A stretch of 64,000 nt of DNA from Miscanthus floridulus (Eukaryota; Streptophyta; Magnoliopsida; Poales; Poaceae), in assembly GCF_019320115.1 (NCBI RefSeq), contig NC_089584.1, forward strand, positions 74,958,791-75,022,790. Reading direction: 5' to 3'. Shown in pieces: positions 2,461-51,294 of the stretch. The notes under the pieces are model-generated. The model was not told the origin of the DNA, searched no databases, and worked only from the letters and a program-made list of their open reading frames with translations. Made by a program: the position numbers and the translations under genes. Position 1 is the stretch's first letter; every line of letters begins with the position of its first letter.

Positions 2461-2610
2461 CGGCAGCTCCTGGTGGGATGGTGTTTCATACTCGAGGCCT
2501 CGGTGGGTGCGCATGAGCGCACCCATCGGGTGTAGCCCCCAAGGTCCTGGAGGAATGGATTTACTCCTCTAGGGGCTTTCCACATGTTCGAGCAAGAGGT
2601 TTTATCGCAT

Positions 2611-3871
2611 TTGCCGAGCCCATGAGCGCGAGTTCGGGTCGCTGGGTCTCGGTTTGGTTGTAGGAAGGGCCCCTGAGCCTCTACGCGGAGCAAGAGGGTG
2701 ATCAGGAGTTTCCCTGTCTTTTTTGTGCGGCCCTCATGCATCTTTTTCATTCGGAAGGAGGGGTGGAGTATGCCAGGCTACCCTTGGTGGGCGTGAGCAG
2801 TGACACCTCCGGTGAGCTATTATCGGGTAAGTCCGAGTGGAGGCCCATGCCCCATTCGATAGGGGTCGGCTGGTGGTCTAGAGATGCACTCCAAAAGTAC
2901 TAGAGGGCTTCTCTAGTGGGTCCCAGGGCCGTTCGATTGGCCTCGGGGGATCGATGCCTCCCTTTGGTGGGATCCCATTCAGAGACCTCACTGCTGGTCT
3001 TATATACGACTTAGGGCATCCTGAGCGATCGCTTGCTTGGGCCTCGGCCATGTACAGGCTTGCCCATAGTCATCCCTAACTCTGTTGTCCTAGGGCAGCT
3101 GTCGAGACCCTCGGGGGCCCAGCCTTCGAACCCCTGGACTGTAACGGGCTTGATGCCCTTTATCGCATTTTACTGAGCCCCCGAGTGCGAGCTTGGGTTG
3201 CTGGGCCTCAGCGTATATGCAGGGAGAGCCCCCAATCCTCTACGCGAAGCGAGAGGGCAAGCAGGAGTTCCCCTGTCTTTTTTGTGTGACCCTCACGTAT
3301 CCTTTTCGTTTGGAAGGAGGGGTTGTTTGCCGAGCCCTCGAGTGCGAGTTTGGGTCGCTGGGTCCTGGCTTGGTTGTAGGAAGAGCCCCCGAGCCTTTGC
3401 ATGGAGCAAGAGGGCGATTAGGAGTTTTCCTATCTTTTTTGTGCGACCCTCGCGCATCCTCTTCATTCGGAAGGAGGGGTGGAGTATGCTAGGCTACCCT
3501 CGGTGGGCGCGAGTAGTGACACCTCCGGTGAGCTATTATTGGGTAAGTCTGAGTGGAGGTCCTACCCATTCGATAGGGTCGGCAAGTGGTCCAGAGACAT
3601 ACTCCAAAAGTACTAGAGGGCTTCTCCAGTGGGTCCTAGGGCCGTTCGATTGGCCCTGGGGGCTCGGTGCCTCCCTGTGGTGGGATCCCCTTCAGAGACC
3701 TCCCTACTGGTCCTAGACACGACTTAGGGCATCCTAAGCGATCGCTTGCTTGGGCCTTGGCCATGTACGGGCTCACCCATAGTCATCCCTGACTCTGTTG
3801 TCCTAGGGCGACTGTCGAGACCTTCGGGGGCCTAGCCTTCGAACCCCTGGACCATAACAGGCTCGATGCCC
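2611..3871. repeat. Tandem duplication (offset 716 bp) in the Tat 3' untranslated region
   Basis: Segment 2611-3158 recurs as 3327-3871. Shared landmarks include the 'ggtttggttgtaggaag' region, 'ccaaaagtactagagggctt' and 'tcgaacccctgga'. The intervening 3159-3326 is a partial third copy of the beginning of the unit. No gene is supported; the ORFs here are by-products. The stretch 3872-4150 holds nothing I recognise. Confidence 0.85.
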
Positions 3872-4326: not shown

Positions 4327-6550
4327 ATGGCCGGTGGCATTGTTGTCCTCTAGGCAGATCCATGGGGTCCATTCGACGTGTCCGTGGAGATGCTGCAGTC
4401 GCTCGTTGATGACGGCCTCCTCCGCCCAGTTACCAACCCCACCAGGCTAGAGTGGATTGCTTCGGGGGGCGAGCTAGAACCGAGGCCACGCGATGGCTAC
4501 ATCGTGAGCTTTGTGTCCTTCCACGGGCATGGTCTCGGCCTGCCGACGGATCGGTTCATGCGGGTGCTCCCATACTACTATGGCATGGAGCTCCATAACT
4601 TCAACCCCAACTCCATTGCGCAGGCAGCCATCTTCGTCGCCGTCTGTGAGGGGTATCTAGGCATTGCCCCCCACTGGGAGCTGTGGCTCCACCTCTTTCG
4701 AGTGGGCCTCACCACCAAGCCAACAGGCATGGTAGGCACGTGGAAGGCGATGAGGGTAGGTGGCTACACTCTCCAAGTGCACCAAGACCGGCAACTCCTC
4801 TACATCCCAGCCCAGCTCATGTTGTCCAACCATCGCTGGTACAATAGCTGGTTCTACCTCCACAACGATGATGGCGGGCTTCCCCCCTATACCGGGCGGG
4901 TCATGGAGAGCCAGCTAGAGAAGTGGAGGTATGGCGTCCCGGTGGTCGACCAGCCCAAGCTATAGCCACTCCTAGAGGGGCTATGTAGCCGTAGCCTTAC
5001 GGTGGCTGTGGTCGTGGCAGCCTTCCACCGCCAGAGGGTGCTGCCGCTGATGGCACGGCGGTGATGCCTATTCAACATGACACTGGATGAGCCAATCGAG
5101 GGTGTCCAGATGTCTGTCGTCGCCCTCTCCGACAAGGAGATTCTACATTAGGTGAGAGAGACGGTGGAGGGGCGGCTAAGGAGTGGTGGTCTGACCCCAT
5201 TCGCGATGCGCCCATCACGGGGGTACCTCTCTTTGGTAAGTCATGCATCGCTGTGGCCCTCGAGGCCTCCTTGCTCCTCATGTTTTCCTATTCCCTTATT
5301 TGTGTTTGCCATCCCTATAGGGGATGAGGGATGTGCGAGCCTCCCTGCCACCCATTCCCGAGGACGTAGAGCGGAGGGCGGTGAACCGGGCGCACGCCGA
5401 GGCACAGAAGAAGCGAAAAGACACCGAGGAGGCAAGGCGCAAGAGGAAGAACCTTGAGCGTGAAGAGCTAGAGAAACATTGTCAACAGCAGAGGCACGAT
5501 GGTCTCATGGTGGAGCCATCTCCATCACCATCATTGTCAGATTCCTCGAGCGACGACGACGAGGGCGAGGCAGGGCGGGGTGCCCTAGACCATCTCCCTA
5601 ACATCGAGGGGACTATGCCTGGGGCATCGGTGAGCGGCCTAGCGTCTCCAGGAGGAGGGGGAAAGGATGCCTCGGGGCTAGCGATCGCCCACCCAGGGGC
5701 CGAGACTGACGCACCCGAGGCATGGGCATTGGGGAAGCGCGCCGTCAGCCCGATGGGCTCAACGGCGGAGGTGGAGCAAGCGGTGGTGGGGGCAACAGAA
5801 CCACCTCTGCAGAGGGTCGAGGGGCACCAGAGTCTAGTGAGAGCCGGCCGGCACCGGCAGACACAAAGGCCGTGCCTCTGCCGCCGCCGCCGCCATTGCA
5901 GAGGATGAGGGACACATTGCAGAAGCGGTTGTGTCCCTGTTTGAGGTAAGTGTTTTGTTAGTGGTGTTGTAGCATCTCCTGGACGTCCCTTGGTCGTATG
6001 CTAATCTTGTGAGTGCTTTGCCCTTAGCCGAAAGCATCAGGCAGAAGTGCCTGCCCTAGCACCGCGTAAGGTGCTCAAGGTGAGCACCAGCTCCACCGCC
6101 CAATGGGTGATGGAGGCGCAAGCTGCCATACAGCGTGGCGCAGCCTTGGCCAGGGCCGACCTAAAGGAGCTGGACGCCCAAGGAGAGGCGGCCAAGGCGG
6201 CCACGGAGCAAGCAGAGGAGGAGGAGCCTACACCCCACGAGGCTGAGGCTCGCGAGTTAGATGAAACCGAGGCACCCTCAGTCACCAAGGCCACCGAGGG
6301 CGAGGCCGAGGCCCCTCGGACCTCCAAGGCTGAGGCGATGGAGGTTGGGGTGCCTAGGACCACCGAGGCCAAGGTGGTGGAGGTTGGAGCCCTTGGGACC
6401 ACCGAAGCTAGGATGGCGGAGGCCGGCGTGAGCGTGGCGAAGCCGGCAGCCCAGGAGGCGGAGATGGAGGCAGGGCAAGCTTCAATACCGCCCCCGGTCC
6501 AAGGCCCGCTGTCGTCGTAGGAGAGCACCTAGGAAGTGGAGGTCCATTTG
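4327..6550 (+). pseudogene. Antisense spliced gene of the Tat element, 5' half (PF04195-like 'gypsy-type transposon' protein)
   Basis: The reading frame starts at 4327 and is broken by TAG at 4351-4353. It then runs openly from 4378 to 4965 with a conserved-looking domain (positions such as GLPTDRFMRVLPYYYGMELHN) that I recognise as the plant 'putative gypsy type transposon' family. TAG at 4963 and further stops follow. Canonical introns are visible at about 5236-5319 (gtaagt to ctatag) and 5947-6027 (gtaagt to ccttag). The rest is Ser, Ala and Glu-rich low-complexity sequence, with a TAG near 6520. It lies opposite to gag-pol, as in other Tat elements, and its role is unknown. Tekay-1 inserted in its last exon here; the same frame resumes at 21824. 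Confidence 0.75.
6546..6550. repeat. Target site duplication ATTTG, left copy (Tekay-1)
   Basis: ATTTG at 6546-6550 precedes TGTAACACC and is repeated at 21819-21823 after CTGCGACA. The match is exact. Confidence 0.95.
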
Positions 6551-9289
6551 TGTAACACCTCGGGTGTTAACCTTGCATAACTTGACTTGCATAACGTGAG
6601 CATGAGCATCAAGCATTCATAAATCATCATTTACAATTGAAACATTTGATCGAAACATATGAAACATTGCTTGTTATTTCGTGTTTCTTGGAACATATGC
6701 ATATGATCTTGTACAAAGGAATGCAAGTGGGTAGTGCTAGTCACTAAAACACCTTAGCTACACTTAGGTTGACTAAAGGAACCTTGTTCATGAAGGCCAC
6801 ATTTCTTGATCAAGCATTTAAGTGTTATTTCATGTGTTGACATGGATAGCTATATGAGTGACTACTACATGAAATGCTTAAATGACCTTGCAAATTGTTT
6901 TAACATGCTTAGGGTATCATCATGAACAACTTTGGTATTTAGGGCTAGGGCTAAATTGGTCATTTAGTCAGGGTTTGAGTATGTATCATGTTTTCAAAGT
7001 GACATGTTTGACTAAAGTTGAACTAGGTGTTAGAGACCTTGCATGGAGGAGTTCACTAAAGCAAAGTTGTAGTGTTTGACATAAGGAACAACTTTGATTT
7101 TTGGGTCTTTGACTGATTCTGCTCCTAACATGTGTGAATTTGAGTTTCAAAAATCAGTGAAATCATAATTTCTACACTTCGCAAATTTTTGCTAAGTCGT
7201 GAACACTGTCAGCCTGACAAGCCGACTTTGAGCATGATTTTACTCGGTTTAGGTTGCGAATTAGAGTATGCTTCCTTAACAAGAGTTGGAGATGGTACAT
7301 GGTTCTACAACTTCTATTCACTACGTTTGCACTAAGGAGCCACCGTTTAGCCGGTAAATCAACGAGAAAAAGCGCTGTCAGGCTCGGCCATCGCGCGACT
7401 GACGAACTGAATCGCGAATGAACATGGCCGACCGGTTTCAGGCTTTGTGCGCCGCGTGTCCCCGGCGGCGGCCGCGCGTCGCCAGCGCCCTGACCGCGCA
7501 GGCCACGCCGTGCCTGGGCGCGGCCTTAACCCCGCCAGCGTCCGCCCGAGTCGCCCCGCGCTTCATTTCCCATTTTCTGCTCCGTCTTCCTCGCCGCAGC
7601 GACAGCCGAGCTCGGCCCGCACCTCCGCCGTCGCCATAGCCGTCACCAGCTCGTCCTCACTGCTCCTTCGCCACCGCAATAGCACCACCATCTCCCCAGC
7701 GCCCCGTAGCTTCTTCCCGTGCCCGCCATTCGCGCTTGGTAAGCCTCCGCCGCGCGCACATGCTCGCCGGAGCTCCGCCACCACCCTCCGTCGCCGTGGC
7801 CAGGCCTAACTAGACCACCCCAGGCCACGAGAGCACGCGCACTAGCTTCCTTGTAGTCTGTAGATGCTTGGCGTAGTGTTTGTTTGAGCCGCCGTAGCCT
7901 TCACCAGCGTCCCGCCGACGTCCCGCCTCGCCAAGCCGCCATGGCCACCGCCGTCGTCCTTACCGTCGATGTTAGGGTCGGCCAAGGGGTTCAATAGAAG
8001 CGCTAGGTTGAGTAGGTCACGCCGTGAAGACGTTACCGCCGGCGGACTCGCCGTCGACGAGCCGTGGCCGCGCGAGCTTGCTCAGCGCCGCCGGCTCTGT
8101 TTCGGTTTCACTGACAAGCGGGCCCTGCTGACCAGCGGGTCCCACCTGTCAGCGACAGCAGTAGTGTAGGCTAACTCATTTTGAATCCAGTTTTTGATTT
8201 CTTTTGTTATTTTTGTATCTTTAGTTTGGTAGCTCCAAAAATGTTGAAATAAATATGGTTGTGTTCCTTAGGAAGTGTAGTATTTAGGAAAAATATGTTC
8301 TTTGCTTCAACAGTAGAAATTTGTGGAGATTTAAATAGGGATTTCAAATGTGCTTTTGAATGCATTTAAATTTGTTTATTTTATATCTAGAGTTCCTATG
8401 CTCCAAAAATTATGAAATTTTTGTGGTAGGCTATTCTTGTTATACATGAGCTTGGATAAAAATTTGAGGACCAGTGCATGTGTAGATCTATAGTTATAGA
8501 TTTTCCTTTTATAAATAGTTAATCCTTGCATGAATTTTTATAAATTAATTATAAGTCCAAAATTCATGAAATTAATTGGAGGTGATACTAGTACCATATG
8601 GATGTTAAGAAAAATAAGAAATCTGTTGCTTGACACTTTTCAATAGGATTTTCCATTTATGCTATTTCAAGCCTTGCTTCCTTATCATTTTTGTATGGGA
8701 TGTTCTACTTAGTAAAATGACCTGAAATTTTTATAGTAGTCCTTTGATAGCATTATTAAGGCTCTGTAAATTTTTGAGAATTTATTAAGCACCTCTGATA
8801 TATATTTATTATTTAACCTAGATATCTAAATAAAATAATAAAGGCAATTTAATAAATAGTTTGGGCTTTGCCATTATATTATCTTAACTATATTTGGTAT
8901 ACTTAAACTGTTGGTAGGTTCTAGGTTGTCAAATTGTGAATGATTACATGAAGTAGAGGTGTTATTACTTTATATTGCATGTTAAGTCATTTCCGGACTG
9001 ATTCTAGAATATGATGAGTTACACGTTGAAACTGATGTAGACTGTAAAAATGGTTAATAACAAAGTTGTAGAAAATTTGATAAGCTTTCCAGAAAGTCCA
9101 GGATCACTAGATTTGGAATTGTAGAACTCTAGTTATGAGTGAAACAAGCAGATACTGTTTATGGCATAGTCGATGCATTGTAGAAGTAGTTAAGTAGTAA
9201 GCGAGAAGAGATATGCACCTACTCAAACAACGTGATGCACTTGTTAACATTATGCATTCGTAATACTCATACCATACTCATGCATCTAG

Positions 9290-9502
9290 GATCGGAGGAA
9301 GAGATCACGTTGCTGGAATTCGAAGAAGCAGAGGAAGGGAACCCGCAGGAGGATCCGCAAGCCGCAGCTCCCGAAGGCGTGGAGCAGAACCCTGAAGAGC
9401 TTCTGGAGTGCCCTGACCATCGTCCTACTTCCTTTCTGCGAGGCAAGCCCCGGAGCATTATAAGTCTCCCAGTAATTTACAAATGTTTACTTACGTATTT
9501 AT
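9290..9502 (+). other. Candidate acidic mini-exon inside the Tekay-1 LTR
   Basis: After a splice-acceptor-like ctag at 9286-9289, a frame stays open to 9502 and encodes an acidic peptide beginning GSEEEITLLEFEEAEEG. It then becomes Pro and Glu-rich. The 3' LTR has the same segment at about 20169-20381. A phase-matched acidic segment after an acceptor-like site also occurs in Tekay-2 LTRs (48165-48259). Translation and splicing are inferred; the sequence shows only the open frame, its composition and the acceptor-like AG. Confidence 0.45.
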
Positions 9503-10470
9503 GATTGATGCATTAGGTTATAAGAGTTGAATGAAACCACTTGATGCATGTACATTCCTTGTCCAGATATTAACCCTTTAACCGGTATAGGTCCAGGATC
9601 GAATATATGCTTAGCCATGCTTAGACCGGTAGAAGTCGGGTGATGTCCTGTCACCTGCGAGATATAGGTGGATACCGGAGCATGGTTGGCTATATCTGCT
9701 ATCGTGGAACAGAACCATGTGGTAAAAGTAAATCGAGACCGGACGGGAGGTCGATAGGGAAGCAACAAGGCATGGAGGTCTTGGGTGTGGACTTATCCCC
9801 GTCTGTGTCGATCAAGGACCGTACCGTTGTTGGAACTTCTGACAAGATTGAACACATGCCTCTCACTTAGCTGGCCGGATAACTCGTTCCGACCGCGAAG
9901 CCGAGTAATTCAACTCAGGCCAGGAATCGTTCTGTTGTGCGCTCCTTCCGGGGAACGATCAGACTGAGCCCAAGGGCAGGCTTGGCCTGAGCATCCTGGC
10001 ATCTGGTGTTCCAGATTGTGCGGCGCAGTACAAACCCGCGAAATGTGTACCGGAGTTGTACCAAAGGTGACCTAAGACTATCGTGGCTGATAGATCTAGG
10101 TTTGTGTTAGGAATAAATTCCCAGCTGGTTGAAATCGATTCGAATCGCCGTCTCTCCCGGATAGTGAGAAACTTGGCTAGCTCCAACATCGTAGTAACTG
10201 TGTTATGAAACGTGATGGTTCAAATGAATATGGAATTACAATATCTGCTATGGTTACTATTGTATGATTCTAAATAACATACCACATGTTTGGCATAGGA
10301 TAGTTGCTAACCTAGAAATGGATAGTTATAATTAACTTGATAAAAGAATCACAACTGTACAGCGGTTAATTGCCTTTTTCACAAAAATGTTGTCAAGTTA
10401 CGTCCACTTATACAGCCTTGCATAATCCTTAGAGTCATTTTATTTCTGGTTCATGACGGGTAAGTCTAGC

Positions 10471-10490
10471 TGAGTACCTTCTCGTACTCA
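10471..10490 (+). promoter_or_regulatory. Perfect LTR hairpin TGAGTAC-loop-GTACTCA
   Basis: A seven-base perfect stem with a six-base loop sits between a gtaagt-like site at 10460 and a pyrimidine-rich acceptor-like tract ending in gcag at 10514. The 3' LTR has an identical copy at 21350-21369. It could act in RNA 3'-end formation or packaging; that is inference. Confidence 0.5.
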
Positions 10491-10941
10491 GGGTTTATTT
10501 TCCCATTGTTGCAGATGGCACTGTGTATCATGGTTATTGCAAGAGTTGCTTCTATCCCGCTGTGGATGAGGAGTAAGCCGTGGGCAGGCTTCCTTAGTAA
10601 TTCCTATCTTTGCTTTTGTGGACCGTGATCTGGTTTGGCACTGTAGTAAACTATGTTGGAAAACTTTATTTCAAATTTATTTGCTTCCGCTTTGTTTATC
10701 AAATTTGTTTTGTAATAACTTTTATTCGTACTCTGATGATGAAACGTATCTGTGAACTTTATGTAAAATGTGGCATGTATGTTGAATCCTGTACGATCTT
10801 GGTTGTTGTAAATCGTTTATCGAGACCCGTCGTGGTACTCGACGGACTACCGGGTTTATATGGGTTCAAGTATGACGGTGCGACCGCTTGCGGATTGCCA
10901 TTATACTTGTATTCTTATAAATTGGTCGGTTCTGCGACAGC

Positions 10942-10957
10942 TGGTATCAGAGCAGAT
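10942..10957 (+). other. Primer-binding site of Tekay-1
   Basis: TGGTATCAGAGC starts two bases after the 5' LTR. It is the usual complement to the 3' end of plant initiator Met tRNA and marks the start of minus-strand DNA synthesis. Confidence 0.9.
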
Positions 10958-11703
10958 TCAACGTTAATTGTCACAAGTGTATTTAAAACAAAAGTTTTTG
11001 TTTCCGAAAACCCTTCTCTAGCAACTAATAGTTATATAATAGGTATTTGAAATCTAAAGTGTGCCAATGATCACTTTCCTTATGCCCAAATTAAGGACTA
11101 TTAGGTGGCTATGTAAGTACTAACATGGGGGTTTTTACTTCGTCGTCCATACGGCGTGCTATAGTATGGATGCCATTCACTTGAGTGGTAATGTATGGAT
11201 CACTGCCTCTACGCCAAGGTAAAATGAGTGTATGACCGCAAGATGTGAGCGTGCGATCGGGAAGAGTTAGCTTTGGTACGGCTATGTATACATGCTTGCA
11301 TGTGTATATGGTACGTATTTAATTGTGGGTTTAAATTCTTGCCGGGTAGATTGATATGGAAGTATATGTATGGGGATACATATATGAAAGTATTTACAAT
11401 TACATTCTGCATATTTCATTATGGGATTAGGGCTGAAATGAAATTTTATGCAGGTACACTAACAACGAAACGTGTAGCTCGACTAGTTACGCTATTTATG
11501 AGAGAACATATGTATGCCACCGTGTCTACCGTTAGAAACAAATTTTTCCTAAGTTTGTGAGGACGTACGGCACGAGCATGCATCATGTTAAAATACCATT
11601 CACATAATTACATTGTTCCTCCCCTTATAAGATTCTTACTCGGTTATGTAACTCTTATCCATTATGGCATTGTCTCACCAAAGGGTACATGTTGATGGTG
11701 CAG
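10958..11703 (+). other. Tekay-1 leader, no gene seen
   Basis: This 746-bp stretch holds no convincing ORF. It presumably contains packaging signals. The end is notable because the accessory ATG at 11704 directly follows gtgcag, an acceptor-like sequence. Confidence 0.6.
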
Positions 11704-12624
11704 ATGGCACGCACCAAGCAGACTGCTCGCAAGTCCACCGGAGGCAGAGCTCCTAGCCGTCAGCTTGCTCCACGTACCCGTCAACGTCACACGTTCCTTG
11801 GAGAGTTTGGGATGCCTACACTCTTATGGAGAGTGCTCAGCTATGTAGGCTATCCTGATGGAATGGAACCCCGCTACTTTTGGGCGAATGAGCGGTTGGG
11901 AGAAGGTCTCTTAGTTACCGTAGAGGCCGTTGTTCGTCCCCGAGGTGACGAGTCTGAGTGGACAGGTTGGTGTTATGAGTCGACTGGCAGGACTGCTGAA
12001 GAAGCAGCTGGCAGGGCAGCCTTTGGGATCCTGAGGGATATCATGGATCGTTTTCCTCAGGAACTGGCAGCCGCTATGGTTGGAGTCTTTCCAAGAGGTA
12101 ATCCCTTCACTGACTCATGGTAGCAGGCAAGAGGAAGACCCTTAGAAATTGGTGCAGCAGAAGGGCAGAACAGCGATAGCCCTGCAATGAGCGCCATGTT
12201 CGCAGTGATGAGAGTGTTAGATGGAGTTGAAGGTAGCCTCAGACGTGTGTCTGGTGCTCTTGGTCATGCCCGTGAAGACCGACGTCAGCTTCAGAGGGAG
12301 CACGACATCGAGGTTGAGAGGCTCACCGAAGAGATGACTCGGTTAACTCACCAACGGAATGCAGCCTGGTCCAGGGAAGATGTCCTGAGAGCTCGACAGT
12401 TTGAACTGGAACAGCAGCTGGCCAATGCGGAAGAATACAATGATAATCTGCATGAAGAGGTTCACCTACTGCACAATCAGCTCCACCCTTATGTGCCACC
12501 TGGAGCCGCAGAAATGGATCTAGAAGGGTATGAAGAAGAAGAAGTGGCACCAGAAGAGGAAGTCGAACCTGAGGAAGGAGATGATTCTGCGTCTGACCTT
12601 GATAGTGATCATGATGAGGATTAG
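11704..12624 (+). CDS. Tekay-1 accessory protein with histone H3 N-terminal tail mimic, coiled coil and acidic C-terminus
   Basis: From the ATG at 11704 the frame has 307 codons, interrupted once by TAG at 12121-12123 (codon 140). Residues 2-14 are ARTKQTARKSTGG, identical to histone H3 positions 1-13. QLA at H3 positions 19-21 is also kept. K4, K9 and S10 are present, while H3 positions 14, 18, 23 and 27 are Arg. Residues about 30-139 form an unrecognised domain ending in an Ala-rich helix (AEEAAGRAAFGIL), only weakly reminiscent of a dsRNA-binding fold. Residues about 190-258 look like a coiled coil. Residues about 269-306 are strongly acidic. There is no histone fold, so this is not a histone gene. 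Two earlier in-frame ATGs (11689, 11695) would bury the tail unless splicing joins at gtgcag|ATG. If TAG is a true stop, the product is 139 residues and 12187-12624 is separate. Function is unknown. Confidence 0.8.
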
Positions 12625-12974
12625 ATCGCTTAGCATTTAGGGGAAAGACTAATGTATCACCTTTATTATGTAATGGACCTGTAGTTTCAAGTTGGCATTA
12701 GTAACCAGACTATCATGTAATATTAATCGCACGTTTGGGTAAACGTCAATGCAATTCCAGTTCCTTGTCGGTAATCACGCTTTAAATCGCATGCGTTATG
12801 GGCACGATAAGTGGTCAAATTGGTGATGTCATGTTGCGAGAATGAATTATTATGCCTCTGTTTTTATTGTGCTTTTGAGAATTTTCTCCAGTAATTTCAG
12901 TTTGGCATGAGTACCTAATTCATCTGCAATCTCTTGGCATCGACAAATAATCGCTTATTGTTGCAACTTCGCAG
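12625..12974 (+). other. Spacer between accessory ORF and gag with acceptor-like end
   Basis: This 350-bp stretch contains no ORF of note. It ends with cttcgcag directly before the gag ATG, and a pyrimidine-rich tract with an AG lies near 12885-12900. An acceptor just before gag would let a spliced RNA bypass the accessory frame. This is inference from sequence only. Confidence 0.45.
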
Positions 12975-15900
12975 ATGACGCGCACCCGTGCTGGAGCTGG
13001 TGGTAGCCAGGATGGCAACCAGGATGACTTGCCACCCCCACCGCCACCGTCTGCTCAGGAGTTCTTTACCCAGTTCCTGGGTAGCCAGAGGACAATGGAA
13101 GAAGCTTTGCGCCTCATCGCGCAAAACACTGCTCGTGGCCACCCACAGCAACCAGGGGCCGAGCCAAATCAGCACAGTACCTTCAAGGAGTTTCTGGACA
13201 CGAAGCCTCCGATCTTCAAGGTGGCTGAGGAACCATTGTAGGCCGATGAGTGGCTGAATACCATCGAGCAGAAATTTCGTCTGCTAAGGGTCACCGAGCA
13301 CCTCAAAGCTGAATATGCTTCTCATCAGCTGCAAGGACCAGCAGGAATCTGGTGGACACACTTTCTGTCGTCTCTGCCTGCTAATGCGAGAGTGACCTGG
13401 GATCAATTCAAGCTGGCTTTTAGGGGACACCATATTCCCCCGGGCCTGATGCGCATGAAAGCAGCCGAATTTATGAGGCTCACTCAAGGAACCAAGTCAC
13501 TCACAGAATATATGCACGCATTCAACAACTTGTCAAGATATGCTCCAAGTTTTGTGGATACTGAAGAGAAAAAGATTGAGAGTTTCAAGCGAGGTTTGGG
13601 AACCAAATTAATGAAGACTATGGCAAATTCTCGATGTGCCACGTACAATGAGTTTATTAGTGATGCCTTGACCCAAGAAAACCACAACAACCTGCATGTA
13701 GTTGCTAAGGGTCGCAAGAGGGCATATGAGGCCAGTGCATCCGGATCCTTTTAGTCAAAAGCGCCTATCGCAGCTAGGCCACCATTTCGTCCACCTGCAT
13801 CCAAGTTCAGGCCTCCACCCCCGAAAGCTCAGAATAACAGGCCACAGAAACCATTTCGTAAGGCGTTTACTATTGCCTTACCAAAAGGAAATGGCAATCA
13901 GGACAGCTCCACCGGATTCAGAAGTAACCAACCTTGTTTCAACTGCAACCAACTGGGTCACTGGTCCAAGGAGTGCCCCCACCCCAAGAGGAATGGCAAC
14001 CCAAATCAGAACAATCAAAGGCAGATGAATGCCAGGGCACGTCAGGGACAAGTGCATTATACCGCTGTGGAGGAAGTGCCCGCCGGAGAAGTTGTCACGG
14101 CTGGTATGTTTCTTGTCAACAAGCATCCCGCTGTTGTTTTATTTGATTCGGGAGCTTCTCATTCATTTATGAGTCAAGCATTTGCATCTAGACATGATCA
14201 AGAAATAATTGAAGTAAGTAAAGGGGGTTTTAACATAAGTTCAGCAGGGGGAACTGTTACTACCAAAAAGATAGTCAAAAATGTACTCATCTTGATACAA
14301 GGGCGGGAGTACACCACAGATTTGATAATATTGCCGGGGTTGTCGATAAGTGTAATCTTAGGCATGAATTGGATGAAGTATCATGGTGCTCTTATTGACA
14401 CTAGCACCCGTACTATCATGTTGAGAGAACCCACGGGAGGGAATGCTTTTCTAGTTCCACTCTCCCGCGATTTCGAACCCCAACATTTAGCCTGTGCTAT
14501 CCAAACCACCACAATATGTGATATCCCCATGGTTTGTGAGTTTCCGGATGTATTTCCAGAGGAATTACCAGGTCTACCACCAGATAGGGATGTGGAATTT
14601 AAGATCGAATTAGTGCCAGGTACCGCACCCATATCCAGAAGGCCCTATAGAATGCCACCCAATGAGTTAGCAGAACTCAAGGTTCAATTGCAAGATCTAT
14701 TGGACAAAGGTCTTATCCAGCCTAGCTCATCTCCGTGGGGATGTCCAGCATTGTTTGTGAAAAAGAAGGATAAGTCACTAAGGATGTGTGTAGATTACAG
14801 ACCACTAAATGCTGTGACCATCAAGAACAAATATCCGTTACCCCGTATCGACATCTTGTTCGATCAGCTAGCAAAGGCAAAAGTATTCTCCAAAATTGAC
14901 TTAAGATCAGGCTACCATCAGATAAAGATCAGACCGGAGGATATACCGAAGACTGCTTTCTCTACTAGGTACGGCTTATACGAGTACTTGGTTATGTCGT
15001 TCGGACTAACAAATGCTCCAGCCTACTTTATGTACCTAATGAACTCGGTATTCATGCCCGAACTTGATAAGTTTGTGGTCGTGTTTATCGATGACATATT
15101 GATTTATTCAGAAAATGAGTCAGATCATGAAGAACACCTGAGGATTGTCCTATCCAGACTAAGGGAACATAAGCTTTATGCCAAGTTTAGCAAATGTGAA
15201 TTTTGGATGAGCAAAGTACCTTTCTTAGGTCACATTTTATCCAGAGATGGAATCTCAGTAGACCCATCAAAAGTACAGAAGGTCATGGATTGGAAAGCCC
15301 CAACTTCGGTTCATGAAGTTAGAAGTTTTCTAGGGTTAGCAGGATACTATCGCCGGTTTATTCCAGATTTCTCAAAAATAGCTAAGCCTATGACCAGACT
15401 ACTTCAGAAAGATGAGAAATACAAGTGGACACCGGAATGTGAAACAGCTTTTCACACCCTCAGAACTTTGTTGACTACAGCCCCAGTGCTAGCACAACCA
15501 GACATTGAAAAGCCTTTTGATGTATTTTGTGATGCATCAGGAATAGGTTTGGGATGTGTACTTATGCAAGAAGGGAGAGTAATTGCATATGCCTCTCGGC
15601 AACTGAGAAAACATGAAGTCAACTACCCTACACATGATTTGGAACTTGCAGCCGTTGTCCATGCCCTAAAGATATGGAGACATTACTTGTTGGGCAATGT
15701 ATGTCATATCTACACTGACCACAAAAGCCTCAAGTATATCTTTACCCAGCCAGAACTGAACATGAGACAACGTAGATGGTTGGAATTGATTAAGGACTAT
15801 AATTTGGAAGTGCATTACCATCCGGGTAAAGCTAATGTAGTAGCCGATGCACTTAGTCGGAAGTCCCATTGCAACACTGTGGAAGCGCTATTGGAAGATG

Positions 15901-17387
15901 GATTCAACTTGCTACATCCTGCTGTACTACACAATATCACAATCAGTTGTTCGCTTGAAGGCAAAATCATAGAGCTACAACAGACTGATGTAGGAATAAG
16001 TCACATAAAGAGAAAAATGCAAGAGCAAGAAACAAAGCATTTTAGATTGGACGAAAGAGGTGTATTATGGTTTGAGGACCGACTAGTGGTGCCAAAAGAC
16101 CGTGAGCTAAGGAATCAGATTTTAGAAGAAGCTCACTCGTCCAAATTGTCTATCCACCCGAGTAGTAGTAAAATGTATCAGGATCTAAGAAACCGTTTTT
16201 GGTGGACTAAGATGAAGAAAGAGATCGCAGCCTATGTTGCTAGGTGTGATAACTGCAGCAGAGTGAAAGCCGTCCATATGAAAACCGTGGGATTACTTCA
16301 GCCATTGCCTATCCCAGGATGGAAATGGGAGGAGATCAGTATGGACTTTATCACAGGCCTTCCAACAACGCCCCAAGGTCACGATTCAATCTGGGTCATT
16401 GTTGATCGTCTCACAAAGTCAGCCCATTTTGTACCAGTTCACACAACATATCACGCGGGTAAATACTCTGAGTTATATGTTTCACAGATTGTGAAATTGC
16501 ATGGAGTACCCAGGACCATAATCTCAGATAGAGGACCACAGTTCATAGCTCGTTTCTAGGAGCACTTACACCAAGCTTTGGGAACCAAGCTAATCAGAAG
16601 TTCAGCTTATCATTCGCAAACTTCAGGGCAGACAGAGAGAGTAAACCAAATCCTAGAAGATTTACTTAGAGCTTGTGTTTTATCTTCAAAAGGCTCATGG
16701 GAGAAATGGTTGCCTTTAGCTGAATTCTCCTATAACAACAGTTATCAAGTGAGTATCAAAATGGCTCCATTTGAAGCCTTGTATGGCAGAAAGTGCAGAA
16801 CTCCATTGAATTGGATTGAGCCCGGTGAAAGGAGATATTTTGGTATTGATTTTGTCAATGAAGCCGAAGAACAAGTACGTATCATCCAACAACACATGAA
16901 GGCAGCTCAATCAAGACAGAAGAGTTATGCCGATAGAAGAAGAAGACCACTAACTTTTGAAGTAGGTAACTATGTGTACTTAAGAGTATCACCCATGAAA
17001 GGTGTGAAGAGATTTGGGATGAAAAAGAAGCTTTCACCAAGATATGTAGGGCCTTACAAAATTTTAGAACAGAAAGGAAATGTTGCGTATAAGCTACAAC
17101 TACCAACAGAGATGAGTGCAATCTTTGATGTGTTCCATGTTTCTCAGCTAAGGAAATGTCTTCGAGTACCGGAAGAAGCTATTGCACCCACCAACGTGCA
17201 ACTTCAATCGGATTTGACTTATGAAGAAAAGCCAATTCGAGTATTAGAAGTGATGGAGAGAGTGACTAGGAGTAAGATTATTAAGTTCTATAAGGTGGTG
17301 TGGAACAATCATAGTGAACAAGATGCTACATGGGAAAGAGAAGATTATCTGCAAGAAGTTTATCCCGCCTTTTTCCAAGAATGGTAG
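12975..17387 (+). pseudogene. Tekay-1 gag-pol polyprotein with integrase chromodomain, three TAG stops
   Basis: The single frame from 12975 to 17387 has 1470 codons without frameshift. It is broken only by TAG at 13239, 13752 and 16557. Gag covers about residues 1-340 and ends with a CX2CX4HX4C zinc knuckle near 321. The protease DSG is at about 390. RT has the FIDD active site at about 704. RNase H lies at about 850-965. Integrase has an HHCC zinc finger at about 1052-1095 and catalytic Asp, Asp and Glu near 1123, 1185 and 1220. A GPY/F motif lies near 1357 and a chromodomain-like segment at about 1422-1465 (KVVWNNHSEQDATWE). The stop at 16557 replaces the highly conserved Trp after the second Asp. 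A one-frame gag-pol is usual for Tekay elements. All three stops fit C-to-T change at CHG sites. Confidence 0.93.
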
Positions 17388-17417
17388 GTCTTGCAAATCT
17401 CGGGACGAGATTTTTAT

Positions 17418-17430
17418 AAGGGGGAGGGGC
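17418..17430 (+). other. Polypurine tract of Tekay-1
   Basis: The purine run aagggggaggggc lies immediately before the 3' LTR start TGTAACACC at 17431, the expected place for the plus-strand primer. Confidence 0.88.
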
Positions 17431-20400
17431 TGTAACACCTCGGGTGTTAACCTTGCATAACTTGACTTGCATAACGTGAGCATGAGCATCAAGCATTCAT
17501 AAATCATCATTTACAATTGAAACATTTGATCGAAACATATGAAACATTGCTTGTTATTTCGTGTTTCTTGGAACATATGCATATGATCTTGTACAAAGGA
17601 ATGCAAGTGGGTAGTGCTAGTCACTAAAACACCTTAGCTACACTTAGGTTGACTAAAGGAACCTTGTTCATGAAGGCCACATTTCTTGATCAAGCATTTA
17701 AGTGTTATTTCATGTGTTGACATGGATAGCTATATGAGTGACTACTACATGAAATGCTTAAATGACCTTGCAAATTGTTTTAACATGCTTAGGGTATCAT
17801 CATGAACAACTTTGGTATTTAGGGCTAGGGCTAAATTGGTCATTTAGTCAGGGTTTGAGTATGTATCATGTTTTCAAAGTGACATGTTTGACTAAAGTTG
17901 AACTAGGTGTTAGAGACCTTGCATGGAGGAGTTCACTAAAGCAAAGTTGTAGTGTTTGACATAAGGAACAACTTTGATTTTTGGGTCTTTGACTGATTCT
18001 GCTCCTAACATGTGTGAATTTGAGTTTCAAAAATCAGTGAAATCATAATTTCTACACTTAGCAAATTTTTGCTAAGTCGTGAACACTGTCAGCCTGACAA
18101 GCCGACTTTGAGCATGATTTTACTCGGTTTAGGTTGCGAATTAGAGTATGCTTCCTTAACAAGAGTTGGAGATGGTACATGGTTCTACAACTTCTATTCA
18201 GTACGTTTGCACTAAGGAGCCACCGTTTAGCCGGTAAATCAACGAGAAAACGCGCTGTCAGGCTCGGCCATCGCGCGACTGACGAACTGAATCGCGAATG
18301 AACATGGCCGACCGGTTTCAGGCTTTGTGCGCCGCGTGTCCCCGGCGGCGGCCGCGCGTCGCCAGCGCCCTGACCGCGCAGGCCACGCCGTGCCTGGGCG
18401 CGGCCTTAACCCCGCCAGCGTCCGCCCGAGTCGCCCCGCGCTTCATTTCCCATTTTCTGCTCCGTCTTCCTCGCCGCAGCGACAGCCGAGCTCGGCCCGC
18501 ACCTCCGCCGTCGCCATAGCCGTCACCAGCTCGTCCTCACTGCTCCTTCGCCACCGCAATAGCACCACCGTCTCCCCAGCGCCCCGTAGCTTCTTCCCGT
18601 GCCCGCCATTCGCGCTTGGTAAGCCTCCGCCGCGCGCACATGCTCGCCGGAGCTCCGCCACCACCCTCCGTCGCCGTGGCCAGGCCTAACTAGACCACCC
18701 CAAGCCACGAGAGCGCGCGCACTAGCTTCCTTGTAGTCTGTAGATGCTCGGCGTAGCGTTTGTTTGAGCCGCCGTAGCCTTCACCGGCGTCCCGCCGACG
18801 TCCCGCCTCGCCAAGCCGCCATGGCCGCCGCCGTCGTCCTTACCGTCGATGTTAGGGTCGGCCAAGGGGTTCAATAGAAGCGCTAGGTTGAGTAGGTCAC
18901 GCCGTGAAGACGTTACCGCCGGCGGACTCGCCGTCGACGAGCCGTGGCCGCGCGAGCTTGCTCAGCACCGCCGGCTCTGTTTCGGTTTCACTGACAAGCG
19001 GGCCCTGCTGACCAGCGGGTCCCACCTGTCAGCGACAGCAGTAGTGTAGGCTAACTCATTTTGAATCCAGTTTTTGATTTGTTTTGTTATTTTTGTATCT
19101 TTAGTTTGGTAGCTCCAAAAATGTTGAAATAAATATGGTTGTGTTCCTTAGGAAGTGTAGTATTTAGGAAAAATATGTTCTTTGCTTCAACAGTAGAAAT
19201 TTGTGGAGATTTAAATAGGGATTTCAAATGTGCTTTTGAATGCATTTAAATTTGTTTATTTTATATCTAGAGTTCCTGTGCTCCAAAAATTATGAAATTT
19301 TTGTGGTAGGCTATTCTTGTTATACATGAGCTTGGATAAAAATTTGAGGACCAGTGCATGTGTAGATCTATAGTTATAGATTTTCCTTTTATAAATAGTT
19401 AATCCTTGCATGAATTTTTATAAATTAATTATAAGTCCAAAATTCATGAAATTAATTGGAGGTGATACTAGTACCATATGGATGTTAAGAAAAATAAGAA
19501 ATCTGTTGCTTGACACTTTTCAATAGGATTTTCCATTTATGCTATTTCAAGCCTTGCTTCCTTATCATTTTTGTATGGGATGTTCTACTTAGTAAAATGA
19601 CCTGAAATTTTTATAGTAGTCCTTTGATAGCATTATTAAGGCTCTATAAATTTTGAGAATTTATTAAGCACCTCTGATATATATTTATTATTTAACCTAG
19701 ATATCTAAATAAAATAATAAAGGCAATTTAATAAATAGTTTGGGCTTTGCCATTATATTATCTTAACTATATTTGGTATACTTAAACTGTTGGTAGGTTC
19801 TAGGTTGTCAAATTGTGAATGATTACATGAAGTAGAGGTGTTATTACTTTATATTGCATGTTAAGTCATTTCCGGACTGATTCTAGAATATGATGAGTTA
19901 CACGTTGAAACTGATGTAGACTGTAAAAATGGTTAATAACAAAGTTGTAGAAAATTTGATAAGCTTTCCAGAAAGTCCAGGATCACTAGATTTGGAATTG
20001 TAGAACTCTAGTTATGAGTGAAACAAGCAGATACTGTTTATGGCATAGTCGATGCATTGTAGAAGTAGTTAAGTAGTAAGCGAGAAGAGATATGCACCTA
20101 CTCAAACAACGTGATGCACTTGTTAACATTATGCATTCGTAATACTCATACCATACTCATGCATCTAGGATCGGAGGAAGAGATCACGTTGCTGGAATTC
20201 GAAGAAGCAGAGGAAGGGAACCCGCAGGAGGATCCGCAAGCCGCAGCTCCCGAAGGCGTGGAGCAGAACCCTGAAGAGCTTCTGGAGTGCCCTGACCATC
20301 GTCCTACTTCCTTTCTGCGAGGCAAGCCCCGGAGCATTATAAGTCTCCCAGTAATTTACAAATGTTTACTTACGTATTTATGATTGATGCATTAGGTTAT

Positions 20401-21818
20401 AAGAGTTGAATGAAACCACTTGATGCATGTACATTCCTTGTCCAGATATTAACCCTTTAACCGGTATAGGTCCAGGATCGAATATATGCTTAGCCATGCT
20501 TAGACCGGTAGAAGTCGGGTGATGTCCTGTCACCTGCGAGATATAGGTGGATACCGGAGCACGGTTGGCTATATCTGCTATCGTGGAACAGAACCATGTG
20601 GTAAAAGTAAATCGAGACCGGACGGGAGGTCGATAGGGAAGCAACAAGGCATGGAGGTCTTGGGTGTGGACTTATCCCCGTCTGTGTCGATCAAGGACCG
20701 TACCATTGTTGGAACTTCTGACAAGATTGAACACATGCCTCTCACTTAGCTGGCCGGATAACTCGTTCCGACCGCGAAGCCGAGTAATTCAACTCAGGCC
20801 AGGAATCGTTCTGTTGTGCGCTCCTTCCGGGGAACGATCAGACTGAGCCCAAGGGCAGGCTTGGCCTGAGCATCCTGGCATCTGGTGTTCCAGATTGTGC
20901 GGCGCAGTACAAACCCGCGAAATGTGTACCGGAGTTGTACCAAAGGTGACCTAAGACTATCGTGGCTGATAGATCTAGGTTTGTGTTAGGAATAAATTCC
21001 CAGCTGGTTGAAATCGATTCGAATCGCCGTCTCTCCCGGATAGTGAGAAACTTGGCTAGCTCCAACATCGTAGTAACTGTGTTATGAAACGTGATGGTTC
21101 AAATGAATATAGAATTACAATATCTGCTATGGTTACTATTGTATGATTCTAAATAACATACCACATGTTTGGCATAGGATAGTTGCTAACCTAGAAATGG
21201 ATAGTTATAATTAACTTGATAAAAGAATCACAACTGTACAGCGGTTAATTGCCTTTTTCGCAAAAATGTTGTCAAGTTACGTCCACTTATACAGCCTTGC
21301 ATAATCCTTAGAGTCATTTTATTTCTGGTTCATGACGGGTAAGTCTAGCTGAGTACCTTCTCGTACTCAGGGTTTATTTTCCCATTGTTGCAGATGGCAC
21401 TGTGTATCATGGTTATTGCAAGAGTTGCTTCTATCCCGCTGTGGATGAGGAGTAAGCCGTGGGCAGGCTTCCTTAGTAATTCCTATCTTTGCTTTTGTGG
21501 ACCGTGATCTGGTTTGGCACTGTAGTAAACTATGTTGGAAAACTTTATTTCAAATTTATTTGCTTCCGCTTTGTTTATCAAATTTGTTTTGTAATAACTT
21601 TTATTCGTACTCTGATGATGAAATGTATCTGTGAACTTTATGTAAAATGTGGCATGTATGTTGAATCCTGTACGATCTTGGTTGTTGTAAATCGTTTATC
21701 GAGACCCGTCGTGGTACTCGACGGACTACCGGGTTTATATGGGTTCAAGTATGATGGTGCGACCGCTTGCGGATTGCCATTATACTTGTATTCTTATAAA
21801 TTGGTCGGTTCTGCGACA
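17431..21818 (+). repeat. 3' LTR of Tekay-1 (4388 bp)
   Basis: It is nearly identical to 6551-10939. About 20 scattered substitutions and a one-base deletion near 19650 were found by eye, most of them transitions. The GC-rich block, acidic mini-exon and hairpin are all retained. Confidence 0.97.
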
Positions 21819-21823
21819 ATTTG
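21819..21823. repeat. Target site duplication ATTTG, right copy (Tekay-1)
   Basis: ATTTG after the 3' LTR matches 6546-6550. Skipping 6551-21823 keeps the antisense gene in frame. Confidence 0.95.
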
Positions 21824-23804: not shown

Positions 23805-26800
23805 TTAAGGGTAGAAGTGACGTAGCTATTCTATGTTCCAAGCATTGGTGAGGATTTTGCCCTTCTCGTTGGCTAGCTTGTAGGTCCTAGGCTTTAGCAC
23901 TTGGGCGATGATGTACGGTCCTTCCCATGGCGGCGTCGGCTTGTAGCAGCCCTTATTGCTCTGCCTCAGTCTCAGCACCAGATCGCCCACCTTTAGGTTT
24001 TGGCTTTGAATGCACTGGGCTTGATAGCATCGTAGGGCTTGCTGGTACTTGGCCGAATGTTGCAGCGCAACGTCTTGGGCTTCCTCCAGTTGGTCGAGGG
24101 CGTCTTCGTGGGCAGTGCGGTTGCTTTGCTCGTTGTAGGCCTATAGTCTCGGGGAACCATACTCCAAGTCAGTGGGGAGGATGGCCTTGGCTCCATAGAC
24201 CAGGAAGAATGGTGTGAACCCTGTGGCTTGACTCAGGGTGTTCCTCAGGCTCCAGATGACCGACAGGAGTTCGGCAAGCCATTTCTTGCCAAATTTCTTC
24301 AACCGGTTGCATATTCTTGGCTTGAGGCCTTGTAGGATCATGCCGTTGGCACGCTCTACTTGGCCGTTTGTCCTAGGGTGTCCTATGGCTGACCAGGCCA
24401 CACAGATGTGGTGGTCATCGTAGAACATTAGGAACTTGTGGCCGGTGAATTGCGTCCCGTTGTCAGTGATGATGGTGTTTGGAACCCCAAACCTATGGAT
24501 GATATCAGTGAAGAACAGCACCGCTTGCTTAGATTTGATTTGATTGATCGAACGAGCCTTGATCCACTTGGAGAACTTATCAATCGCTACCAACAGATGG
24601 GTATAGCCCCCGAGGGCCTTCTGCAAAGGCCCAACCATGTCGAGCCCCCATACGGTGAATGGCCATGTAATGGGGATGGTTTGGAGGGCTTGGGCCAGGA
24701 GATGCGTCTATCACGCGTAGTACTGGCACCCCTCGTAGGAGTGTACGAGCTTGGTGGCGTCAGAAACCGCCGTTGGCCAGTAGAACCCTTAGTGGAAGGC
24801 ATTTTCGATGAGCGTCCAGGGCACTGCATGGTGCCCGCAGGCCCCCGTGTGCAAGTCCCAAAGTAGGGCTTGGCCTGCCTCGGTGGTGATGCATCGTTGG
24901 AGGACACCAGATGGGCTTCGCCTGTATAACTTGCCGTTGCTAAGGACGTAAGTTTTGGCTCGTCGCGCAAGCCATCGGGCTTTGGTCCTGTTTGTAGGAA
25001 GCTCTCCTCGAACAAGGCAATCAAGGAACGGGACTCACCAGTCCGTGCCCTGGTTGGCCTTGGGAGGCTCTGTGTTGACTTCCATGACCTCGAGCTCGGC
25101 CGAAGGGGTCTCGGTGATAGAGGGGGCCTCAGGCCCTGTGGTGGGCTCGACCGGCGGGCCCTCTTCCACCGCCAAGGCGTAGTCGATGGAAGGCTTGTGG
25201 AGGTCTCTGGCGAAGACGTTCGGGGGGACCGGGGCCCGTGCCGACACCATGTTTGCTAGTTCATCCACGGCCTCATTGAATTTTCACACGATGTGGTTGA
25301 GTTTGGGACCGTCGAACTTGTCTTCAAGGTGTCGTACCAGCTTACATTACGCCTCTATTTTAGGGTCATGGCAGTTCGACTCCTTCATCACTTGATCGAC
25401 GACGAGCTATGAATCACCCCGTACGTTGAGACGTCGTACTCCAAGTTCGATGGCGATCTGCAAGCCATTGATGAGGGCTTCATACTCGGCTGTGTTGTTG
25501 GAGGCAGTGAAGTGGAGGCGAATCATGTAGCGCATGTGCACTCCGAGGGGTGAGATGAAGAGCAGACCTGTATCTGCCCTAGTCTTCATTAGGGACCCGT
25601 CGAAGTACATGGTCCAGCATTCCGCCTAGACTTGAGTAGGTGGCAGTTGGGTGTCGGTCCACTCAGCCACAAAATCAGCCAAGACCAGAGATTTAATTGC
25701 TTTCTGAGGCACAAAAGACAGGGCTTCCCCCATGAGTTCGATGGCCCATTTGGCTATCCTACCCAAGGCCTCCCGATTATGTATTATCTCTCCTAGGGGG
25801 AAAGACAACACCACGATCACCGGGTGGGACTCGAAGTAGTGATGTAGCTTGCGTCGAGCCAAGACTATGGCATAGATTAGTTTCTGGATGTGGGGGTAGC
25901 GTGTCTTAGTCTCGGAGAGCACTTCACTAATGAAGTAAATAGGTCGTTGGATGGGTAGAGCATGTCCTTCTTCCTGCCTCCCAACCACCATGGCCGCGCT
26001 GACCACCTAGGTCATTGCGATGATGTAGAGTAAGAGGGCCTCGTCCTTGGCCGGCGATACTAGGACAGGAGGATTGGTGAGCAATGCCTTGAGCTTGGCG
26101 AGGGCTTCTTCGGCCTTGGGGGTCCAAGAAAAGCGTTCGGATTTTCTCAAGAGATGGTACAGAGGCAAGCCTTTTTCACCAAGGCGCGAGATGAAGCGGC
26201 TTACGGCCACAAGGCATCCCATGACCCTCTGTACTCCCTTGAGGTCTTGGATTGGTCCCATGTTGGTCACGACCGAGACCTTTTCTGAGTTGGCCTCGAT
26301 GCCGCGTTCCGAGACTATGAACCCCAAGAGCATGCCTCGAGGGACCCCGAAGACACACTTTTCAAGGTTGAGCTTGATGCCCTTCTCTTTGAGGCATTTG
26401 AAGGCTATCTCTAAGTCATTGATGAGATTGCTGGCCTTTGTGGACTTGACCATGATGTCGTCCACGTAGGCCTCGACGGTTTGCCCGATGTGCTCGCCAA
26501 AGACCTAGGTCATGCACCGCTAGAATGTGGCCCCTTTGTTTTTGAGGCCGAACGGCATGGTCACATAGCAGTACATACCAAATAGTGTGATGAAAGAAGT
26601 CACGAGCTGGTCGGACTCTTTCATCTTGATTTGATGGTAACTGGAATACGCATCAAGGAAGGATAGGGTTTCGCATCCCGCAGTGGAGTCAACGATTTGG
26701 TCGATTCATGGTAATGGGAAAGGGACTTTTGGGCATGCCTTATTCAAACCGGTGTAGTCTACACACATCCTCCACTTCCCTTTTTTCTTCTTAACTAATA

Positions 26801-46586: not shown

Positions 46587-46591
46587 ATGAC
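46587..46591. repeat. Target site duplication ATGAC, left copy (Tekay-2)
   Basis: ATGAC precedes TGAAACGACC at 46592 and recurs at 61967-61971 after GTTACA. Confidence 0.93.
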
Positions 46592-48164: not shown

Positions 48165-48259
48165 CTACGAGATTGGGTGGGATGTGGCACCTTTAGTGTA
48201 GTCGTCCCCATACTCCTCATGGTACTCTCGGTCCTCGTCCGTCAGGTTCTCCTCCGAGT
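48165..48259 (-). other. Candidate acidic mini-exon inside the Tekay-2 LTR
   Basis: After an acceptor-like tttgcag on the minus strand, a short frame encodes SEENLTDEDREYHEEYGDD and ends with TAG at 48165. The other LTR has the same segment at 59167-59261, also ending in a stop there. The reading phase at the acceptor (last G of AG is codon base 1) is the same as in the Tekay-1 LTR mini-exon. Expression is inferred. Confidence 0.45.
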
Positions 48260-48489
48260 CTGCAAACGATCGCATTATAGTCGTATTAGCGACGTTTATA
48301 GAATAGCACAAAGAAGCAATAAAAATTCAAAAGAGCCAAATACACTCAAACATGGGTTCATTGCGTAAAGCTCGATTTAGATAAATTTTGGTCCTGGTTT
48401 CGTATTTTTCTGAGGTTGTATGAATTAGTTATAAATTTCCAAAGTTTAATTCATCTCTGTAAATGGAAAAGGCTAAATTAATCCTGGGC

Positions 48490-48860
48490 TGACACGTGTC
48501 ACGCTGTGACTGGTCCACGTGGCATGCTGACATCAGCGTGATGTCAGCATGATGTCATCAGCTCGGCTCTGAGCTGACAAGTGGGGGGTCCTGCTGACGT
48601 CAGCATGACGTCATCCACGTCATCGTTTCCGACAGGTGGGACTAGAGGCTCTTAGGTCACTGACATGTGGGTCTAGTCAAAGTCAACGTCAAGTCAATGA
48701 GCGAGTCAACGGTCAACGGGTCATAGTCACTGACAGGTGGGGCCAGGGATGCTGACGTCAGCAGCTGACATCACCGTGACATCAGCATGACGTCACCTCG
48801 GCTATGTTGTTATTGACAGGTGGGACCCGCGTGATGTCGTCATGGCGTCACTTACTGACA
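48490..48860. promoter_or_regulatory. TGACGTCA-rich block in the Tekay-2 3' LTR
   Basis: Several TGACGTCA or one-base variants (TGATGTCA, TGACATCA) and ACGTGG motifs occur within about 370 bp, often in the pair TGACGTCAGCATGACGTCA. These are ACGT-core sites of the kind bound by plant bZIP (TGA/G-box) factors. The corresponding block in the other LTR is 59490-59850. Confidence 0.6.
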
Positions 48861-51211: not shown

Positions 51212-51240
51212 GTCCTACCCCCTTAACAGAATCTCGTCCC
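51212..51240 (-). other. Polypurine tract region of Tekay-2
   Basis: Reading minus, 'ttaagggggtaggac' leads into the LTR start TGTAACAAC, the expected plus-strand primer position. A 'ctcggggacgagattctg' segment just upstream resembles Tekay-1 upstream of its tract. Confidence 0.75.
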
Positions 51241-51294
51241 CGAGATTAAAGCGTAACGTACTCTTTGAAGAGATAAGGGTATCGTAGCCGGAGG

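Follow-up and report, generated by a model that had tools for sequence, protein, structure and literature searches.

The 64,000-nucleotide stretch of the Miscanthus floridulus genome analyzed here (contig NC_089584.1, positions 74,958,791 to 75,022,790 of the forward strand; the whole stretch is called the window below) carries at 6551-21818 a young chromodomain long terminal repeat (LTR) retrotransposon with an accessory open reading frame (ORF), ORF0, whose protein begins with the N-terminal tail of histone H3. The element's LTRs, 4389 and 4388 bp long, have the termini TGTAACACC/GCGACA and are 99.52% identical (20 mismatches and 1 gap opening in blastn), corresponding to an age of ca. 0.18 million years at an assumed substitution rate of 1.3e-8 per site and year. 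All structural hallmarks of a Ty3/gypsy LTR element are present, that is, LTRs, polypurine tract, target-site duplicate, and a primer binding site that is presumably of the tRNA-Met type. The domain order of gag, protease, reverse transcriptase (RT), RNase H, integrase, and chromodomain is that of a Ty3/gypsy chromodomain LTR retrotransposon, with the integrase split in the window copy and with Pfam scores of the chromodomain (PF00385, E 4e-4) and of rve (E 0.01) that are both below Pfam's cut-offs. A preliminary description of this DNA had located ORF0 between primer site and gag of a chromodomain-bearing LTR element. This placement stands, with the primer site starting at 10942 and gag at 12975.

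Right after the Met codon at 11704, ORF0 reads ARTKQTARKSTGG, identical to H3 residues 1-13, and QLA at 19-21 is also retained. The translated ORF confirms this identity, exact over 1-13 in an N-terminus reading MARTKQTARKSTGG, and we agree with the preliminary description that ORF0 is a retrotransposon accessory protein with a genuine H3 tail. A phmmer search against the sequences of solved structures returned 133 sequences at E <= 1; the best 60 consist entirely of H3 and its variants (lowest E 8e-6), and the similarity does not extend past residue 30. When the window was searched with a degenerate DNA pattern covering the first eight codons, allowing up to three mismatches, the single match lay at 11704 and was perfect. 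The expected number of matches is 0.08, and one was present in 8 of 100 shuffles; these counts and the phmmer E-value rule out a chance match. Of the features of H3, ORF0 has the N-terminal tail, while no histone fold was found in it and the remainder is modeled as a double-stranded RNA-binding domain (dsRBD) fold and a coiled coil. AlphaFold predicts disorder for this basic tail, with predicted local distance difference test (pLDDT) values under 50 at residues 1-17 and 19-23.

ORF0 homologs were found as metagenome proteins and as copies in the window's own genome. Residues 1-139 matched 169 database proteins at E <= 1e-3, and profile searches yielded 491 and 706, with the best 120 listed each time. 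Among the 251 listed matches, 74 extend upstream of the domain start, and these comprise 41 N-termini with the tail, 20 with another start, and 13 that are too short to judge; the tail was called at 6 or more of 16 identities to H3, a criterion that favors conserved positions generally and not K9 over K14. A search of the viral contig collection found no contig encoding ORF0, and the genome contig collection yielded seven loci matching only stretches within query residues 1-30, which are probably H3 genes of contaminating eukaryotes. For the window's genome, searched as 2.68 Gb in 19 large contigs, the window query was used to score the best 150 of 8741 first-look candidates (top-scoring rows, not a census), and 146 of these 150 copies lack an internal stop. 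The 38 tail-bearing loci that were fetched sort into four ORF0 families, A (10, window included), B (7, one divergent), C (4, all with stops), and D (17). The frame is open from the tail ATG over 306-308 codons in 4/10 A loci and over 329 in 10/17 D loci, and H3 1-13 is exact in 10/10 A and 16/17 D loci. A private capture, which the preliminary description had considered in case no related element carried the tail, is ruled out by its presence in database proteins and in several families of this genome.

Across the 41 distinct N-termini, A1 is conserved in 40, R2 in 34, T3 in 38, K4 in 31, Q5 in 22, R8 in 37, K9 in all 41, and S10 in 38, while K14 is found in only 1 (R in 36) and K18, K23, and K27 in none. 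In P0007, P0044, and P0160, a one-residue deletion near 12-13 shifts the later positions, and correcting for it leaves K14 kept in 2. All 18 distinct tails of the window's genome carry K9 and R14 and have a non-lysine at 18 and 23. Q5L variants occur as well, and some lineages differ in the tail. As far as these alignments go, the K9 site and the residues around it are retained in the tail, as is K4 for the most part, and the lysines subject to acetylation in H3 are lost.

The tail is under purifying selection. Substitutions were counted in all 55 pairs of 11 copies chosen from the 38, and the comparison of families A and D comprises 8 pairs (2 A and 4 D copies) over tail codons 2-17. These pairs differ by 6-8 silent changes in the tail, with no replacement change in 6 of the 8 and a single one in the two pairs with L038, where about 11 would be expected at the rate of the ORF0 body (a rough figure, with sites treated as independent). 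The body itself has a pN of 0.31-0.33, and its silent sites are close to saturated. We regard the tail and the selection on it as established, contrary to a private capture without function.

The simplest account of the tail is capture of the first coding exon of a host H3 gene, which is likely because the H3 likeness stops no more than two residues from the end of that exon. Host H3 genes account for 97 matches among the best 150 scored, and the typed plant H3 query was 100% identical in 18 of the rows. In all nine intron-bearing H3 genes inspected, the first coding exon appears to consist of Met and residues 1-23 and to end at AAG/GT, and in three of the nine, TGCAG stands immediately 5' of the ATG. 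Identity between ORF0 and H3 is high to residue 21 across the 41 N-termini, save for the lost lysines and residue 17, and residues 22-28 agree with H3 in 0 or 1 of 41, except for R26 in 21; residue 23 is R in 33. At the DNA level, the family A tail shares 41-45 of its 51 bases and 7-11 of 16 third positions with intron-bearing H3 genes, compared with 38-41 and 4-7 for 24 H3 genes that have no intron in this stretch. The family D tail is closest to one intron-bearing gene (45/51), with 38-44 for other intron-bearing and 40-43 for intronless genes. At the base level, agreement with the exon is thus clear for family A but weak for D, and it might in part reflect base composition.

Table 1. Features of the ORF0-bearing element in the window.
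Feature	Position	Strand	Basis
5' LTR, TGTAACACC...TTCTGCGACA; target-site duplicate ATTTG before it at 6546-6550	6551-10939	+	blastn against 3' LTR
Primer binding site TGGTATCAGAGC	10942-10953	+	Sequence
Candidate splice donor, CCAAG/GTAAAA in the window	11213-11224	+	One leader alignment, L010 with L027
CAG abutting the ORF0 ATG, candidate splice acceptor	11701-11703	+	Sequence and related loci
ORF0 (5' accessory gene), broken at codon 140 here	11704-12624	+	Frame and intact relatives
H3-like tail, residues 1-23, ARTKQTARKSTGGRAPSRQLAPR	11707-11775	+	Translation, phmmer, selection, host exon comparison
Predicted dsRBD-fold domain (alpha-beta-beta-beta-alpha), ORF0 residues 33-120	11800-12063	+	AlphaFold, Foldseek, VIA-align
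In-frame TAG, codon 140 of ORF0	12121-12123	+	Sequence
Coiled-coil region, approximate borders	12187-12498	+	Model of relative P0127
Acidic end, disordered in the P0127 model	12499-12621	+	Sequence and model
gag frame, in frame with pol	12975-14024	+	Pfam Retrotrans_gag, E 1.3e-14
Protease, RT, RNase H, first part of integrase	14025-16559	+	Pfam
Remaining integrase; chromodomain at about 17256-17384	16578-17387	+	Pfam
Polypurine tract AAGGGGGAGGGGC	17418-17430	+	Sequence
3' LTR; target-site duplicate ATTTG after it at 21819-21823	17431-21818	+	blastn

Behind the tail, the domain that the preliminary description had called novel is modeled as alpha-beta-beta-beta-alpha and matches solved dsRBDs (AlphaFold, Foldseek, VIA-align); a known fold is predicted, and the VIA-align match rules out a new one. 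Foldseek against the PDB lists dsRBDs at 10 of its top 11 positions; the exception, at rank 3, is an unrelated protein, and most entries from rank 12 onward have unrelated folds. The ORF0 domain would share this fold with, for example, plant DRB7.2, DCL4, and HYL1 but, unlike those dsRBDs, it has neither a sequence match nor the canonical lysines. Helix 2 of dsRBDs carries the lysine motif KKxxK, and a comparison by eye with TARBP2 did not find these lysines in ORF0, where helix 2 starts with TAEEAA in the window and with TPxEGA or TPWEAA elsewhere instead of the SKKLAK of TARBP2. In the model of the relative P0127, residues 124-266 form a single 143-residue helix and the acidic end is disordered. 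We reject the metabolic-enzyme functions guessed in print for ORF0, since we obtained only stray Pfam matches, namely five with the C-terminal piece (E 0.002-0.08), others across 42 relatives (E 0.01-0.2, with a histone-like PAF domain in 3), and, for a single one of 14 members, a rudimentary NUDIX-like domain (E 0.04).

The best reading of these results, to which we assign a probability of about one half, is that the tail serves as a K9-centered mimic or decoy of H3 that interferes with silencing, a reading favored because K9 is invariant and the other lysines are lost. H3 is the protein that cells mark when silencing jumping genes, and a selected copy of it suggests a possible way to interfere. 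ORF0 would be an accessory protein whose first ca. 23 residues are a captured H3 exon and which acts in the nucleus, where Met removal would leave a free ARTKQTARKS end and SUVH-type H3K9 methyltransferases or readers of H3K9 methylation would bind the tail instead of chromatin. The loss of K14, K18, K23, and K27 would keep the tail responsive to K4 and K9 enzymes and not to acetylation. The dsRBD-fold domain, lacking the usual RNA-binding lysines, may dock by protein contact, perhaps to DCL/DRB proteins, and the long coiled coil may multimerize the protein and display many tails together. As a net effect, the decoy would weaken H3K9 methylation and the linked DNA methylation at new copies, and the element would be transcribed for longer. 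A more far-reaching version, in which retrotransposons of plants, probably grasses, joined the first coding exon of an intron-bearing H3 gene to a dsRBD-fold protein, the resulting decoy links the H3K9-methylation and small-RNA arms of silencing, and the gene later passed as a cassette from one element family to another, is tentative. The extra gene of grass Tekay elements has so far been without a credible function, and a selected H3 tail supplies a definite hypothesis that is relevant to the resistance of plant retrotransposons to H3K9 and DNA methylation and that hinges on the single residue K9.

Several observations weigh against a silencing decoy. The window's own ORF0 copy is broken: 11704-12624 is not the one intact protein of the preliminary description but is interrupted at codon 140, and gag-pol has stops at 13239, 13752, and 16557. 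The coiled coil and acidic end given there are in frame as described but lie beyond this TAG in the window copy, while the frame reads through in intact relatives. One clade (9/41 N-termini) has K4R, pairs including B or C copies, which are not intact, show 1-8 replacement changes in the tail, and an in-frame upstream ATG in 10/10 family A loci would bury the tail if used. For the domain, Foldseek gave zero hits at E <= 1e-3, the domain profile found nothing at E <= 10 among PDB sequences, and Pfam dsrm matched none of the 42 and 14 members scanned, with HMMER filters that drop weak matches. At the top of the VIA-align results, several rows are tied (Z within 1), an RNA-bound RNase III among them, and therefore protein-docking dsRBDs are not favored. 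Finally, tail-less relatives are abundant in the same genome (best 150 of 9942 first-look candidates at 87-95% identity), and the tail is therefore not needed for amplification.

The tail's own ATG is probably the one used, to judge from its surroundings. AG directly precedes the ATG in 37/38 tail-bearing loci and CAG in 15/15 tail-less loci, and 14/17 family D loci have no in-frame upstream ATG in the same open stretch. A donor-like GTAAG lies ca. 485 bases 5' of the ATG (CCAAG/GTAAG in L010 and CCTCG/GTAAG in L027, with GTAAAA in the window), and splicing from there to the CAG/ATG junction would excise the upstream in-frame ATG of family A. The gag ATG is likewise abutted by CAG (12972-12977), as if alternative splicing reached gag and ORF0.

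Tail-bearing and tail-less families in one genome offer a natural comparison. The tail-less family N (15 loci) begins with MAAPAGCENF or close to it. In the A-N pairs L013/L052 and L011/L063, identity is 88-89% over the 1500 bases up to the ORF0 ATG, most of ORF0 has no blastn match, and 80% identity resumes at ca. +829, inside the acidic end. Since the backbones are alike up to the start of ORF0 but not within it, the gene has been exchanged as a cassette, and by these alignments ORF0 moves between element backbones. In a tree of 40 domains, 21 of which belong to proteins with the tail, tail-bearing and tail-less sequences separate with one exception, P0112. This protein combines a window-like tail with an N-type body and could be the product of recombination or of a chimeric assembly. 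For chromosomal distribution, we took contig midpoints as centromere proxies and used top-scoring copies (132/150 rows for A, 150/150 for N, and 128/150 for D) of families whose ages differ and were not controlled for; median distances from the midpoint are 0.36 for A, 0.26 for N, and 0.58 for D (A vs. D, p 3e-6; A vs. N, p 0.03). The tail does not predict chromosomal position.

These distributions bear on an alternative in which the tail is a targeting tag: once methylated at K9, it would be recognized by HP1-like readers or by the integrase chromodomain of the element itself and would direct the integration complex to heterochromatin. The element does have a chromodomain and K9 is invariant, but the two tail-bearing families differ in distribution and A is closer to the tail-less N, which makes targeting less likely and weakens the chromatin-targeting use suggested in the preliminary description. 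N also resembles A in the leader (88%) and in the region after ORF0 (80%) and yet has no tail. Moreover, Tekay-like chromodomains are described as lacking most of the chromo-box motif (PMC3350952), and those of sunflower Tekay elements as retaining one aromatic pocket residue (PMC11728184). We consider targeting unlikely.

A basic and predicted disordered segment might instead serve merely in nuclear import or nucleic-acid binding, and nuclear localization has been predicted for 5'aORF proteins, including those of grasses (PMC11728184). Charge alone, however, does not explain zero replacements over 16 codons in 6 of 8 A-D pairs, nor why K9 is kept in 41/41 while other lysines change, and we find this account improbable. 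Recurrent gene conversion from host H3 genes could keep the tail H3-like in place of selection on ORF0, and A is indeed nearest to one intron-bearing host H3 group and D to another (45/51 bases each). However, R14 and the non-lysines at 18 and 23 in 18/18 tails of this genome, where the host H3 genes listed have K, and the 6-8 silent tail changes that separate A from D make conversion very improbable. An H3 exon captured once and hitch-hiking unused as a neutral passenger, as the broken window copy and the abundant tail-less relatives could suggest, is scarcely credible given silent changes with almost zero replacements between young families and the selective residue pattern.

An ORF0 as such is known from the elements Retrosat2, RIRE3, and RIRE8, where it is an extra gene 5' of gag-pol that evolves faster than gag-pol, with homologs in maize, sorghum, and Brachypodium and with metabolic enzymes as the guessed function (PMC3485330). 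The ORF0 of the window resembles these as an extra ORF between 5' LTR and gag in an element with long LTRs (4389 bp versus ca. 3 kb or more), and the likeness to Retrosat2, RIRE, and Tekay ORF0 rests on position and LTR length as compared by description. The 5'aORF proteins of maize Tekay and sorghum Sb7 are reported to have weak similarity to the double-stranded RNA-binding motif (DRBM) fold and a long C-terminal helix, features also present in the models of the window's domain and of P0127, respectively, and a role in modulating RNA silencing has been suggested for them (PMC11728184). The main text of PMC3485330 contains neither "histone" nor "tail", and that of PMC11728184 neither "histone" nor "mimic". 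Among the titles and beginnings of abstracts listed in searches of open-licence PubMed Central (PMC), we found no description of the tail, its selection, its exon origin, or the cassette exchange. The preliminary description knew of no account in a plant LTR retrotransposon; this does not hold for the gene, which has been published together with its DRBM-like fold, but it does for the tail within that literature. To our knowledge, ORF0 would represent the first case of histone-tail mimicry in a transposable element.

The NS1 protein of influenza A virus also has an RNA-binding domain. Its H3-tail mimic, which engages host chromatin proteins, is located at the C-terminus (PMC12937675), whereas ORF0 copies the natural H3 N-terminus over ca. 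21-23 residues and does so in a plant retrotransposon. Geminivirus TrAP and the VANC proteins of VANDAL elements are parasite proteins that reduce silent chromatin marks in plants (PMC4606454, PMC10398659); they are like ORF0 in its proposed action but not in sequence, and the abstracts of these reports name no H3 tail.

Both LTRs of the element contain a perfect inverted repeat, GAGTAC-CTTCTC-GTACTC (10472-10489 and 21351-21368), which is flanked by GGGTAAGTCT on the 5' side and TTGTTGCAG on the 3' side, is common to L010 of family A and L027 of family D, and may be a structural RNA signal. Elsewhere in the window, an older second Ty3-type element with repeats of 92-96% identity occupies 46590-61966 on the minus strand; its pol shares 56% identity with the pol of the ORF0-bearing element, and eleven ORF0 queries gave zero matches in it. 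An RT fragment at 25833-26771 on the minus strand is more distant (32% identity to the pol of the ORF0 element), and direct repeats of 88-89% identity are spaced at 713-716 bases in 2610-3871.
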